From the NCBI GenBank assembly GCA_011526265.1, contig WTJN01000018.1, positions 1-33,216 of the forward strand: a DNA stretch of 33,216 bases, read 5' to 3'. Shown here piece after piece: positions 27,641-33,216 of the stretch. Under the pieces are notes generated by a model. The model saw nothing but the letters and a program-made list of their open reading frames with translations. It had not been told where the DNA came from and did not search any database. The stretch's first letter is position 1. Each line of letters begins with the position of its first letter. Made by a program: the position numbers and the translations under genes. The stretch comes from Candidatus Arcticimaribacter sp. Lineage in GTDB: Bacteria > Bacteroidota > Bacteroidia > Flavobacteriales > Flavobacteriaceae.

Positions 27641-28909
27641 TTATTCGGGCTTGATGACCAACCGGGCTCTTTCAATTTTGGTGGAAGAAACTTGGGTAAC
27701 GGTCAAGACCATATTGTCAACCTCCAGCGTAGAGTCAGGAGTGGGTATTTCACCAGTGTAATGCATGATCAATCCCCCTAAGGTTTCATAATTTTCGTCC
27801 TCAGGAAGATCAAGCCCATAGGTGGTATTGAGGTAATCGACTTCTAAACGTGCCGAGAATTCATATTCATTTTCATTGATTTGATGTTCGTAATGATCGA
27901 TATGATCGTGCTCGTCTTCAATTTCCCCAAAAAGTTCCTCCACAATATCCTCGATGGTTAGCAGACCGGCGGTTCCCCCGTATTCATCCAAAACAATGGC
28001 CAGGCTTTTTCTTTTTCGTGTCAGACGATTCAACACTTCTTGCACCAAATTGGGTTCATGCACAAATTCTACGGGAAGCAAAACTTCTTTGATGGATTTG
28101 GGTTGTTTCAACATTTCGAACGCATGAACAAAACCAATGATGTCGTCTACATCACCGTCGAAAACAGGGATTTTAGAAAACCCTGTTGACATAAATACCT
28201 CCGACAACTCCTCGATACTTTTCTCTTTTTCGATGGCCACCATTTCTGCGCGGGGCACCATGGCTTCACGCACTTTGACCTCGGAAAACGCCAGGGCATT
28301 CTGAAAAATTTGAATTTCTGGATCCAATTGGGCTTTGTTTTCCACCCCTTCTACTTGCGTTTCGATATAGTCGCCCAACTCTACTTTTGAAAAAGAAAGC
28401 TGCAATTCTTCGCTATCGGACTGAAAGAGCCAGCGCAACAAACCGTTGGTGAGCCGCAAGACAAACATGCTTATGGGAGAAAAAAAAGCGTGAAAAAAGG
28501 CCGCAGGTAGCGCAAAGAATTTGACCAAACGGTTGGCGTATAATTGAAAAAAAACTTTGGGTAAAAACTCTGCCGTTAAAAGAATTACTCCTGTTGATAT
28601 CAAGGTTTGGTAAAGTAAAATCAACAGCGGTAAATCATTATCAAGCTGATCTGGGAAAAACAATTGTATGATTTTTTCTCCCATAAAAATCCCATAAATA
28701 ACAAGGGAAATGTTGTTCCCCACCAGCATGGTGGTGATGAACCGTGAAGGATGTTTTGTGATGAAGTGTAGAAGGCGAGCCGTGAGATTCTTTTTGTTTT
28801 TTTCTATTTCAAGAAAAACCCGATTGGAGGAAACAAAGGCGATTTCCATGCCAGAAAAAAAGGCAGAAAGCGCGAGGCAAAGAAGAATAATACTATCGTC
28901 GAAATCCAT
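27641..28909 (-). CDS. CorC/HlyC-type CNNM-CBS domain membrane protein (hemolysin family)
   Basis: 422 aa. DUF21 TM domain, EAMVPRAEMVAIEK, CBS pair, DEYGGTAGLLTIEDIVEELFGEIEDEHD. Confidence 0.9.
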   Translation of the reverse strand: MDFDDSIILLCLALSAFFSGMEIAFVSSNRVFLEIEKNKKNLTARLLHFITKHPSRFITTMLVGNNISLVIYGIFMGEKIIQLFFPDQLDNDLPLLILLYQTLISTGVILLTAEFLPKVFFQLYANRLVKFFALPAAFFHAFFSPISMFVLRLTNGLLRWLFQSDSEELQLSFSKVELGDYIETQVEGVENKAQLDPEIQIFQNALAFSEVKVREAMVPRAEMVAIEKEKSIEELSEVFMSTGFSKIPVFDGDVDDIIGFVHAFEMLKQPKSIKEVLLPVEFVHEPNLVQEVLNRLTRKRKSLAIVLDEYGGTAGLLTIEDIVEELFGEIEDEHDHIDHYEHQINENEYEFSARLEVDYLNTTYGLDLPEDENYETLGGLIMHYTGEIPTPDSTLEVDNMVLTVTQVSSTKIERARLVIKPE

Positions 28910-29098
28910 CTAGGGTTTGCGCCGGTTAAATTTTTTGCGATAATACGACCGAAAGAAGTACATGAACAACGCTAAAAAAGCAAATCCCACATAGAGGTAA
29001 GCTTTATTGGGACGAAGGTCCCAAAGTTTAACGGCTTCAATTACCGAGACTACGGCAATGATGAGGTAAAGGATTTCTGAGATGCGGCTGGTTTTCAT
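28910..29098 (-). CDS. Uncharacterised 62-aa membrane protein
   Basis: MKTSRISEILYLIIAVVSVIEAVKLWDLRPNKAYLYVGFAFLALFMYFFRSYYRKKFNRRKP. About 2 TM segments; start overlaps the lptC-like stop (ATGA) and its stop abuts the next ATG (TAGATG). Confidence 0.75.
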   Translation of the reverse strand: MKTSRISEILYLIIAVVSVIEAVKLWDLRPNKAYLYVGFAFLALFMYFFRSYYRKKFNRRKP

Positions 29099-29661
29099 TC
29101 TTGGCTATTTTCTTCTTGGACGGCAACGGTTCCCGTAAGCTTACCCGTACTAAATTTAGTAAATTCTTTGTTGGTGTCCAACCTTGTGGCGGCCACATCA
29201 TAGTCTTGGTTGGAAAAGGTAAACGCTTTTTCGGTAAAAATCCACTCGGCATCGGCATCCCAATAGAGTTGTGGGGTTTTGAGTAGACTCCCGTCGCTGG
29301 CTTCGAGAAGAACATTGCCTTGCAAATCGATGATAGACGTTGCGTTATACAGGATACCTCGATCGGCGACCACGGTATTTTCCTGATTATTTTCGTCCAA
29401 AAAAACAACTTTCACCCCCTCTGGAAACTCAGAATATTGCAGCGATAAGTTGGTATAATCGTGGTGAACAGGGGCTGTTAAAATGGCTTTTACTTGGAGG
29501 GAATCGGTATATACCATGCGTATATCATAGGCAATGGCTAGAGGCTCTTGGTTGAGCGGGTCTTGCACCAAGGCTTCTTTTCGCCCGTTATCACACGAAC
29601 AAAAAAAGGTTATTGCCACAACAATAACCTTTTTGATATGTACACGGAATCCGCGAATCAT
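29095..29661 (-). CDS. lptC: LptC-like LPS export lipoprotein
   Basis: 188 aa. Lipoprotein-like N-terminus (VVAITFFCSCDNG), LptC/OstA-type repeats (GVKVVFLDENNQENTVVADRGILYNATSIIDLQGNVLLEASDGSLLKTPQLYWDADAEWIFTEKAF). Confidence 0.85.
   Translation of the reverse strand: MIRGFRVHIKKVIVVAITFFCSCDNGRKEALVQDPLNQEPLAIAYDIRMVYTDSLQVKAILTAPVHHDYTNLSLQYSEFPEGVKVVFLDENNQENTVVADRGILYNATSIIDLQGNVLLEASDGSLLKTPQLYWDADAEWIFTEKAFTFSNQDYDVAATRLDTNKEFTKFSTGKLTGTVAVQEENSQE
29601..29634 (-). terminator. Terminator-like hairpin inside the lptC signal-peptide coding region (candidate attenuator)
   Basis: AAAAAGGTTATTG (29603-29615) / CAATAACCTTTTT (29622-29634): 13-bp perfect stem, 6-nt loop. On the minus strand GGTTATTG-TTGTGG-CAATAACC is followed by a 7-T run. 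Confidence 0.65.
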
Positions 29662-29662
29662 C

Positions 29663-31051
29663 TTATAATTTTGGCACTTTTACGCTGGTGCCAATCCAAC
29701 AGTCAAATTTCACAGAAGCACCTTCTTTTCCTTCGGTAAAGATGTCTGTTTTACTGGGCGCTCGGCCTTCGTAACTCTTGGCGGCTTTGAGTGCCGATTT
29801 TTTAATGGATGCATCTACACTGGCGGCTTTTCTGGCCGTATTGGCTGCTAACCAGTAAACGGCACGCTTGTCGAACTGCGTTTGACCACAATCGTTGGCA
29901 CTGCTGGCGTAGAGATTGGCGATCAGCAAATAGGCCTTACCCAGCGAGGGTTGAAACTCTAGGGCTTTGCGCGCATAGCGGCGGGCCGAAGATTTACGCC
30001 CACGATCTTTGAACTTAAGCGCAATTTTATACAGAATTTTTGCCTTTTTGTAGGGGTCCTCTTCCAATGAAATTGATTCTTCGTAGTATTTCAACGCTCC
30101 TTCGCTGTTGCCTTGCTTGTCGTTGAGCAAGCCCAAGTAGTAGGCAGAATCTGCCGAGGGCTCGAGGGCGTGAAGCGCTTCTACCAAGGTCACAAACAAG
30201 GGATCATCAGAGCACTCTTTGCTGTCCATTCGCGAAGCGGCGCGCTTCAACCAAATTGTATTGGCTTTGTTTTCCTCGAAGTTGCGTTGGTACAACGGAA
30301 TCAAGTTTTCACAACTGGACTCTTTGGCAATAATGGCGTCCAAGTTTTTCAAGAAGATACCGATCGCGTTGGCGTTGGTGTCATATACACGACGACGCTT
30401 AAGGTCTTTGGTGGTGAGTGCAGCTCCACTCTCTTCTTTTTTCAGGATAACATCGAGTCGCTTGGCCAGGTTGGTGGCTTCGGTTTCGAACTTTTCAGAT
30501 ACTTCTTCGTACTTGTTAAAAAGGGCTTCTGTGGTGACGTTGCCTTCTGCTGATTTATAGATGTCATAGAGTGTTTTGAAATAGTTGTACAACCGCTTTG
30601 GATTGGTAAAACTTGCTTGGTCTTCGGCGTAAGCCTTATCAAAAATAGCATAGACTTCGGCAGGAGTCCCAATTTCAAAATCAATCATGCTTTGGGCCTT
30701 ACTTGAGAGGATATCTCCTACTTTGTTTTTTCCTTTCTTGGTGGGGAAGTATTGCATCCAGTCATCGTAGAGTGCCATCAATGCATCGCCTGCTTCGGCC
30801 TTGGTTTCGGGCGTTGCTTTTTTCAAACGGTCTTTTAGAATACGCTCACCATAGGAGTAAATCGCTACATTGAGTGACGGACAGGTTGAACGTACGGCTT
30901 GCCAAGGTGTGTAGGCAGCATCGTAGTTTTTCACTTTTGCATTTTCAGCAAAAATGGACAAATTTTGAAGACACTCTTGGTTGTCTTGCGCCCATACATT
31001 GGCCGTTGAAAAACCGAGTATCACATAGAGAAGGAATACATACTTTTTCAT
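29663..31051 (-). CDS. Periplasmic TPR-repeat protein
   Basis: 462 aa. Signal peptide (MKKYVFLLYVILGFSTANVWAQ), TPR-like repeats (DSAYYLGLLNDKQGNSEGALKYYEESISLEEDPYKKAKILYKIALKFKDRGRKSSARRYARKALEFQP). Confidence 0.8.
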   Translation of the reverse strand: MKKYVFLLYVILGFSTANVWAQDNQECLQNLSIFAENAKVKNYDAAYTPWQAVRSTCPSLNVAIYSYGERILKDRLKKATPETKAEAGDALMALYDDWMQYFPTKKGKNKVGDILSSKAQSMIDFEIGTPAEVYAIFDKAYAEDQASFTNPKRLYNYFKTLYDIYKSAEGNVTTEALFNKYEEVSEKFETEATNLAKRLDVILKKEESGAALTTKDLKRRRVYDTNANAIGIFLKNLDAIIAKESSCENLIPLYQRNFEENKANTIWLKRAASRMDSKECSDDPLFVTLVEALHALEPSADSAYYLGLLNDKQGNSEGALKYYEESISLEEDPYKKAKILYKIALKFKDRGRKSSARRYARKALEFQPSLGKAYLLIANLYASSANDCGQTQFDKRAVYWLAANTARKAASVDASIKKSALKAAKSYEGRAPSKTDIFTEGKEGASVKFDCWIGTSVKVPKL

Positions 31052-31066
31052 TTTCTTCGCTTTATC

Positions 31067-32350
31067 TTAATTATAAATTCTTTTTACAAACCATAGGTCA
31101 TTGAGGGAGAGTCCCAAACGGACGGCCCAATACCTTTCGCGGATCAGACCTCCAGTGTTGACCCCGCGTTCGCCAAGTTCAACCCCTATGTTGAGGTTGG
31201 AATAACCCGACACATTTGTGGCGCTATAAAAACCACCCAACGGTAAACTTAGACCAAAAGATATGCCAGTTTCTTCGAGTGATGTTCCATTGACCACAAC
31301 CCCGCTTAGTTCTTGACGGTAACCAAACCGGAAAGCAACCCGCTTGAGGTAGCTTGTGATGGACGCGTAATTGGGAATGAAAAATCCACCTACCGAGAGC
31401 CGCGTGGCATTCTCATAGCTAACGTTGTTGAGTCGAATAAAATCGTTTCGGAAATTCTCTGATTCGATTTGCGCATACTGCGCCCCGAGCATCCATTTTT
31501 TATCGACACCGAAACTGAAACCGCCCTCGTATTTTTGTCCAATGGACAGGGTCACTTCATCCAGCCCCGATTCACTGAGATCAACGAGTTGTTGTGCACC
31601 GAATGTCTGATTGGATACTCGACGAGTGAAATAGACTTGTTCGTTTTTTGAAATCAATTCATGTGCTGGACTATAGGTACCGAAGAGGTCTACGTGAAAA
31701 CGCTTGGTCAAGGGGATTTTGATGTGTGAACCCAATAAAAAATCGAAACCGGTTACCCGCGATTGACTGCTGAGGTAGGCACCATAATCGAGCGTGCTGC
31801 GCTGTTGAGAGGCTTCACTGCTGATGGTTCCGAAGTTATAGTTGGCTGTAGCACCAATATTGAACCCTTTGAATAGCCGTAAGCCAAGGGTGAAAAATGT
31901 TTTGTTTACTCCCCCTCTGCCTTCAAAACGGTCAAGGGTGATATCGTCCTCGGCGTTTTCCGTAACAGACTGTAATCGATAGCCCACCGAAGAATAGGGC
32001 ATGACTCCAAAACCAAAAACAAACCGCTTGGTGGGGAGGGAGACAGAAATGTAGTCCATGGCTCCTGCGGTCACATTTTCAGTATTATCCTCTGCGTTTA
32101 GTTCGGTGTTTTTGTAACTCAATCCCACAGAAAAAGTGGTGAGCTTAAGATCACCTAAACTGGCGGGATTGTTGAGATTCGCGTGGATGGAATCGGAATA
32201 GGCGTTGAGACCTCCCATCATTCTATTGATGGCGTTACCTCGAAAAGTGATGTCACCTAACCCCCCTAAGGAATAGGGAGAAGCGGTACTGTTTTGGGCC
32301 ACAGAAACACTGGCCAAAAAAAGAAAAAACAATCGGACTATTGTTTTCAA
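31067..32350 (-). CDS. OmpP1/FadL-like outer-membrane beta-barrel protein
   Basis: 427 aa. Signal peptide MKTIVRLFFLFLASVSVAQ, SPYSLGGLGD...MMGGLNAYSDSIHANLNNPASLG, repeated beta-strand pattern. Apparent start codon is TTG (32350-32348). Confidence 0.75.
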   Translation of the reverse strand: MKTIVRLFFLFLASVSVAQNSTASPYSLGGLGDITFRGNAINRMMGGLNAYSDSIHANLNNPASLGDLKLTTFSVGLSYKNTELNAEDNTENVTAGAMDYISVSLPTKRFVFGFGVMPYSSVGYRLQSVTENAEDDITLDRFEGRGGVNKTFFTLGLRLFKGFNIGATANYNFGTISSEASQQRSTLDYGAYLSSQSRVTGFDFLLGSHIKIPLTKRFHVDLFGTYSPAHELISKNEQVYFTRRVSNQTFGAQQLVDLSESGLDEVTLSIGQKYEGGFSFGVDKKWMLGAQYAQIESENFRNDFIRLNNVSYENATRLSVGGFFIPNYASITSYLKRVAFRFGYRQELSGVVVNGTSLEETGISFGLSLPLGGFYSATNVSGYSNLNIGVELGERGVNTGGLIRERYWAVRLGLSLNDLWFVKRIYN

Positions 32351-33075
32351 ATGCGTTGCGTATTGAATGTAAGCAGAAAATCGAGCCCTTCGGCAAGAAA
32401 ATTCGGCGCGACAAATATGCTATTTTTTACACTCTTAGACAAACGATGCGCATCCCCTCCTGTTAAAATTACTGTTAAAGCGGGGAAATCTTTCTTAAAT
32501 CGATCGATATGTCCATCGATTTCGTGGACCATCCCCCAAAACACTCCGGCTTGCAGAGCGGTGGATGTGTTATTCCCGATATTCGATACTGGGGTATCGA
32601 CAGTGACCAAGGGAAGTGAACCAGTGTAGTGCTGCAAACCTTTACAGCGCATGGCTAAGCCTGGGCTTATTGTACCACCAATATAGGTGTGATCAGCGGT
32701 GAGCAGATCGATGGTTAGGCAAGTACCCGCATCGATAACCACAACCGCCTTATCGGTTTGCAAACGTACTGCGGCGGCGACCAATGCAATGCGATCATCA
32801 CCCAAGGTTTGTGGTGTTGTGTATTGACTGTTGAATGGCCATTGAAGTGATTTGACCCCATAACAAGGGAGGGTACCAAAGACCTCAGCAACGCGAGCTT
32901 GATCGAAAAGCCCACTAACATCCGAAAAAATAATGGCGCTGAGTTGATTGCGATAAGGAGCGATGGCCTTTTTAATTTCTTCTATACCATTGCTTTTGTA
33001 TTGATCGATGCATTGACCATCGCGGAAGAGATGCGCCTTGATTTGAGTGTTCCCGATGTCCAGCGTTAAGTGCAT
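32347..33075 (-). CDS. coaX: Type III pantothenate kinase
   Basis: LTLDIGNTQIKAHLF, TLGDDRIALVAAA, VVVIDAGTCLTIDLL, GGTISPGLAMR, VILTGGDA. The ORF track start (33081) is TTG; ATG at 33075 is preferred. Confidence 0.93.
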   Translation of the reverse strand: MHLTLDIGNTQIKAHLFRDGQCIDQYKSNGIEEIKKAIAPYRNQLSAIIFSDVSGLFDQARVAEVFGTLPCYGVKSLQWPFNSQYTTPQTLGDDRIALVAAAVRLQTDKAVVVIDAGTCLTIDLLTADHTYIGGTISPGLAMRCKGLQHYTGSLPLVTVDTPVSNIGNNTSTALQAGVFWGMVHEIDGHIDRFKKDFPALTVILTGGDAHRLSKSVKNSIFVAPNFLAEGLDFLLTFNTQRI

Positions 33076-33078
33076 GAG

Positions 33079-33086
33079 CAAACTTA
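33079..33086 (-). promoter_or_regulatory. -7 element TAAGTTTG, 3 nt upstream of coaX ATG
   Basis: Minus strand TAAGTTTG-CTC-ATG; exact TAnnTTTG match in the coaX/tRNA-Phe divergent gap. Confidence 0.45.
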
Positions 33087-33165: not shown

Positions 33166-33216
33166 GGTACCTTAGCTCAGTTGGTAGAGCAAAGGACTGA
33201 AAATCCTTGTGTCCCT
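33166..33216 (+). tRNA. tRNA-Phe (GAA), 3' part outside window
   Basis: GGTACCT acceptor, TA, D-arm GCTCAGTTGGTAGAGC, anticodon stem-loop AAGGA-CTGAAAA-TCCTT with GAA at 33199-33201. Confidence 0.93.

Follow-up and report, generated by a model that had tools for sequence, protein, structure and literature searches.

A terminator-like hairpin within the first codons of lptC, maintained by paired base changes over much of the class Bacteroidia

Partial termination between the genes of one operon, which lowers the expression of the later genes, has been described in Methanococcus maripaludis under the name ioTTS (PMC10450193), and partial-termination transcripts, named '3'-PT', have been reported in Flavobacterium psychrophilum (PMC9723704). 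In Escherichia coli, intrinsic terminators located inside the rsxC and narY ORFs are exposed when transcription and translation are uncoupled, and ribosomes can hide them (PMC5021804). ORF-internal 3' ends have also been described in this species (PMC7815308).

In this work we analysed a stretch of 33,216 nucleotides from Candidatus Arcticimaribacter sp. (contig WTJN01000018.1, positions 1 to 33,216), hereafter called the window. The genomes nearest to that of the window are chiefly marine metagenome assemblies, several of which are also Candidatus Arcticimaribacter. An earlier note on this DNA had drawn attention to a hairpin in the signal-peptide codons of lptC and had interpreted it as a coupling-dependent attenuator. 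In a large part of the class Bacteroidia this hairpin is maintained via paired base changes, suggesting that operons of these bacteria have a step-down valve built into coding sequence.

The hairpin at the TPR-lptC junction

The hairpin lies on the minus strand within a run of genes that are all encoded on this strand, in the order coaX for a type III pantothenate kinase (32347-33081), an outer-membrane protein gene (31067-32350), a gene for a TPR-repeat protein (29663-31051), lptC for the LptC lipoprotein (PF06835; 29095-29661), a 62-aa ORF (28910-29098), a CNNM/CorC-type gene (27641-28909) and a gene for a SurA/PpiD-type chaperone. A tRNA gene on the plus strand (33166-33216) is cut off by the window edge. 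The TPR gene adjoins lptC on its 5' side, its stop codon TAA occupying 29665-29663 and the lptC ATG 29661-29659. The hairpin site is a gene junction within a single same-strand run, as would be the site of a step-down terminator, and by its geometry every full-length lptC transcript must pass through the hairpin.

The minus-strand sequence from 29634 to 29601 reads AAAAAGGTTATTGT-TGTG-GCAATAACCTTTTT-TT. The stem-loop (29603-29634) is composed of a 5' arm (29634-29621), a loop (29620-29617) and a 3' arm (29616-29603), forming 14 pairs including one T.G with the loop TGTG, which is the same as 13 perfect pairs with the loop TTGTGG. A run of seven T (29601-29607, minus strand) overlaps the end of the 3' arm and codes for the FF of the lipoprotein signal. 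Hairpin and T run are located 27-60 nt into lptC, corresponding to codons 10-21, and the stem starts 28 nt past the TPR stop codon. The codons involved specify KKVIVVAITFF, the core of the signal peptide. The earlier note was accurate on the stop at 29663, the ATG at 29661, the reading frame, the peptide and the distances, as well as on the perfect 13-bp stem with its T7 (29634-29601). It had also considered the hairpin to be probably truly coding, the next in-frame Met being expected to discard the lipoprotein signal; this Met is residue 49, beyond the lipobox, and both points were borne out.

A stable stem-loop with a T run directly after it has the shape of an intrinsic (Rho-independent) terminator. 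Folding of the region 29700-29560 yielded -43.2 kcal/mol, compared with -30.9 +/- 3.9 in dinucleotide shuffles (z = -3.2), and among the 11 terminator-like sites between 26 and 33 kb the lptC hairpin has the longest stem. A search of the window against Rfam 15 at gathering scores found no family at the hairpin; its sole match was the incomplete tRNA that the window edge cuts off. The lptC hairpin is a terminator by shape, from which we infer termination in the cell.

Conservation, covariation and codon pattern

In the window, the hairpin scored above all 60 dinucleotide shuffles of the surrounding sequence and was not reached by any of 300 synonymous recodings of its lptC N-terminal peptide. 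For this synonymous null the lptC N-terminus was recoded 300 times using the codon usage of the locus concerned, and it was run on 98 loci, comprising those with a TPR gene upstream and five others. Fifty-seven of them were at 3/300 or below, and 47 scored above every recoding. The null is conservative, because the stem may itself have shaped the peptide. As background, 160 terminator-like sites were counted in 800 kb (stretches of two relatives), of which 142 were intergenic and a single one, in rnc, lay no more than 120 nt into an ORF at least 90 aa long. The lptC hairpin is not due to chance.

The hairpin recurs at the same lptC position in 28 of 30 loci of the genus and family, with stem sequences as different as AACATAGTCATAGC/GCTATGACTATGTT in L021 and AAAAGTATTGCCATGGT/GCCATGGCAATACTTTT in L022. 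The two exceptions are L019, which is without the hairpin, and L009, which carries a decayed form; in L017 it is weak yet recognisable. The genus alignment has 94.4% of its cells paired and contains 29 double changes, where shuffles give 9.6. Its covariation score is 0.455 (0.294 when shuffled, 0.05-0.19 when slid), and shifting the partner by 1-3 columns abolishes the signal. At the family level, a codon alignment built from protein alone and blind to RNA, from which six rows were omitted (indels or no hairpin region), showed 92.4% pairing and 126 double-change cells, compared with a mean of 44 and a maximum of 62 in shuffles and with 15-28 when slid. Alignment of relatives had been proposed in the earlier note as a check; in neither alignment does the stem decay by synonymous changes, and it covaries in both.

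The RNAalifold consensus of 18 genus loci over 90 aligned columns consisted of the terminator stem alone, with no conserved antiterminator or upstream alternative hairpin in these columns. Selection acting on the RNA at the lptC hairpin is well supported.

The window's TTGGCAC/GTGCCAA repeat at the end of the TPR gene, as read by eye, is not complete in relatives. An operator palindrome at the DNA level was rejected as an account of the hairpin, pairing being kept while stem sequences vary between genomes.

Divergence at codon positions 1, 2 and 3 amounts to 0.446, 0.239 and 0.187 in the hairpin codons, and to 0.244, 0.178 and 0.526 in mature lptC. The order is inverted, third positions being the least variable in the hairpin codons and the most variable elsewhere in the gene; among 160 nine-codon windows of mature lptC, none had third-position divergence as low as that of the first position. 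The two Phe/Leu-Phe codons of the T run have T as third position in 17 of 17 genus loci, the second F codon being TTT in all 17 and never TTC. In the hairpin codons, nucleic-acid selection outweighs protein selection.

Genomic context and further embedded hairpins

We surveyed the context of 140 loci over the class Bacteroidia, counting terminators with a score of at least 20 near the junction. A junction terminator was found in 68 of the 93 loci with a TPR gene directly upstream, versus 5 of the 36 preceded by an outer-membrane protein gene (Fisher p = 1e-9, or 2e-8 without the other genus members; both values ignore phylogeny). The TPR stop and the lptC start abut in most family loci, with a gap of -1 to +4 nt, and the stem mostly starts 26-35 nt after the lptC ATG. 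Relative to the TPR stop, stem starts in the survey cluster at 28-35 nt. Ordinary intergenic terminators of the relative G032 are found at a median of 23 nt past the stop (10th-90th percentile 11-44), so that the hairpin position is near normal for a terminator of the upstream gene.

In family f30 the intergenic gap is 57-103 nt, and the terminator is located 18-23 nt past the TPR stop, before lptC, in all four genomes (L095, L096, L119 and L131). In f9 (L086 and L087) a gap of 38-48 nt follows the TPR gene, yet the hairpin is 33-34 nt inside lptC. Over f9 and the TPR-less members of the window's family (L046, L101, L116 and L132) together this distance is 30-35 nt, and a gap or some other gene is found on the upstream side. 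L085 also retains it inside lptC. L086, L087 and the TPR-less genomes preserve the distance between hairpin and lptC ATG, but not that between hairpin and upstream stop. Given the f30, f9 and TPR-less cases, the hairpin can be assigned neither to the TPR gene nor to lptC in a way that fits all loci.

Among 80 named close relatives found via the TPR protein, chiefly marine metagenome and single-cell genomes, only 26 retain a strong junction hairpin, and many are without it in spite of having the TPR gene. Many marine Flavobacteriaceae in the set L181-L260 are without the TPR-lptC hairpin, and several forms in this set resemble stepwise decay. Streamlined marine relatives often do without the hairpin, which is not essential.

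In L026 (1360-1500 in locus coordinates) the junction hairpin is kept and the lipobox Cys is gone (FFSF); a second signal peptide with a lipobox is found about 30-40 codons downstream in this lptC. A role specific to the signal peptide was considered and is weakened by L026, which has the hairpin without the lipobox Cys, and by rnc, which has no signal peptide. The link of the hairpin to the signal peptide looks incidental.

The rnc case, in which rnc follows acpP-fabF in G032, came out of the background scan. An embedded terminator-like hairpin in the first rnc codons after fabF, for example AAATTCCCGTT-loop-AACGGGAATTTTTTT, was found in 25 of 30 Flavobacteriaceae genomes, although the true rnc start may be one of the ATG, GTG or TTG codons that many species carry 3' of the hairpin. 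This hairpin (L166, 5472-5501 on the minus strand; L261-L290) is mostly 23-24 nt past the rnc ATG and about 30 nt past the fabF stop. Its stems have changed, its indels keep the frame, and the synonymous null gave 3/300 or less at 26 of 30 loci. The window's rnc lacks a hairpin of this kind. Over 1.2 Mb of G032, 14 terminator-like sites lie at most 75 nt from the first ATG of an ORF versus 23 in the remainder of ORFs, some of the fourteen probably reflecting over-long ORFs. Terminator-like hairpins are also seen at L299:3137, L303:2229 and L291:8391 in G032 and at L159:19712 in G009 (a ClpS-like ORF), in each case 27-39 nt into an ORF that closely follows the end of another; they may belong to this class as well.

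For codon bias we used G032, because ribosomal protein L2 was not found in the window's own incomplete genome. With a three-gene reference, codon adaptation was at the 96th percentile for the TPR gene, the 56th for lptC and the 12th for the CNNM gene; for acpP, fabF and rnc it was at the 100th, 73rd and 20th, acpP itself being part of the reference. By this codon-bias proxy from one relative, both junctions run from a gene of stronger bias to one of weaker bias.

Possible functions and comparison with known systems

The simplest reading is a partial step-down terminator, embedded in the start of lptC since the genes abut. We consider it probable that a partial intrinsic terminator at the TPR-lptC junction, within the first lptC codons, steps expression down. 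Some of the transcripts would stop shortly past the TPR gene, which is presumably highly expressed, and the remainder would read through, so that the output of lptC, of the small ORF and of the CorC-type gene would be reduced. The hairpin would be covered by a ribosome translating the early lptC codons, so that read-through may depend on re-initiation, and ribosomes re-initiating on lptC would partly suppress termination. Such translation-gated read-through appears plausible. More tentatively, the ORF-embedded junction terminators of Bacteroidia (lptC, rnc and others) might be translation-gated valves in general, with ribosome crossing setting the transcription of the later operon and with RNA selection having shaped residues of the LptC signal peptide.

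The attenuator of the earlier note goes further, in that the hairpin would terminate unless the TPR ribosome re-initiates at once on lptC, reporting the state of translation and regulating lptC and the later genes. The hairpin is coding and terminator-shaped, as this reading requires, and shows the covariation whose absence would have refuted it. The abutting stop and start fit it, as does the stem start, since the footprint of an initiating ribosome ends just short of it. The spacing to the ATG kept in f9 and the TPR-less genomes is also in its favour, but fits simple inheritance of the hairpin inside lptC as well. Intrinsic hairpins are known to be blocked by ribosomes (PMC5021804); however, the f30 terminator is outside lptC, beyond the reach of lptC ribosomes, the 90 aligned columns hold no conserved alternative structure, and there is no known signal. 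The f30 intergenic terminator, the association with TPR and the fabF-rnc case, which has no signal peptide, point to the plainer step-down role, and we regard the attenuator as doubtful. Selection of the hairpin for another role of the RNA, be it protection or processing of the mRNA 3' end, a delay in translation while the signal peptide is exported, or a small RNA, is unlikely: termination is deduced from shape, and a conserved structure alone does not tell which function was selected, but the T run is kept along with the stem, down to its third positions, rnc lacks a signal peptide, and 3'-end protection would in any case come with terminated transcripts. Coding alone could yield the hairpin as a by-product, with no selection on RNA, where AT-rich genomes encode a hydrophobic peptide prone to palindromes (V-T-x-x-x-V-T-x-F-F), and this peptide does favour repeats, recodings reaching high scores at some loci (6/300 at L023, 4/300 at L130). 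The 47 loci that exceed all recodings, the covariation in both alignments, the conserved third positions and the rarity of such sites at ORF starts in the background make this explanation very improbable, and it is strongly disfavoured.

If the step-down reading is right, operon expression ratios in a major bacterial class would partly be set by terminators that annotation misses, as they lie in coding sequence, and LptC and the later genes would be coupled to an abundant TPR protein at the level of transcription and perhaps also of translation. The lptC hairpin is also a clear case of RNA structure outweighing codon and amino-acid constraint. A literature search, largely of freely accessible papers, found none that describes a terminator in lptC or, for Bacteroidota, terminators embedded in coding sequence. 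Partial termination is already known; in the literature searched, no terminator was encountered that lies within the beginning of a coding sequence and covaries throughout a class.

Like ioTTS and the '3'-PT' transcripts, the lptC junction would rely on partial termination, here proposed from sequence; unlike ioTTS, described as intergenic, its terminator is contained entirely in the codons of the following gene and covaries against the codon pattern. With ribosome-mediated attenuation, as in the trp and pyrBI leaders, it has in common an intrinsic terminator hairpin that a translating ribosome may block, but the hairpin is within codons 10-20 of the structural gene itself, a leader peptide is absent, and the 90 aligned columns showed no conserved antiterminator. 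It resembles rsxC, narY and the ORF-internal 3' ends of E. coli in its place inside an ORF, where ribosomes can mask it, and differs from them in being fixed at the start of the gene, mostly 26-35 nt past the ATG, at an operon junction and with class-wide conservation.
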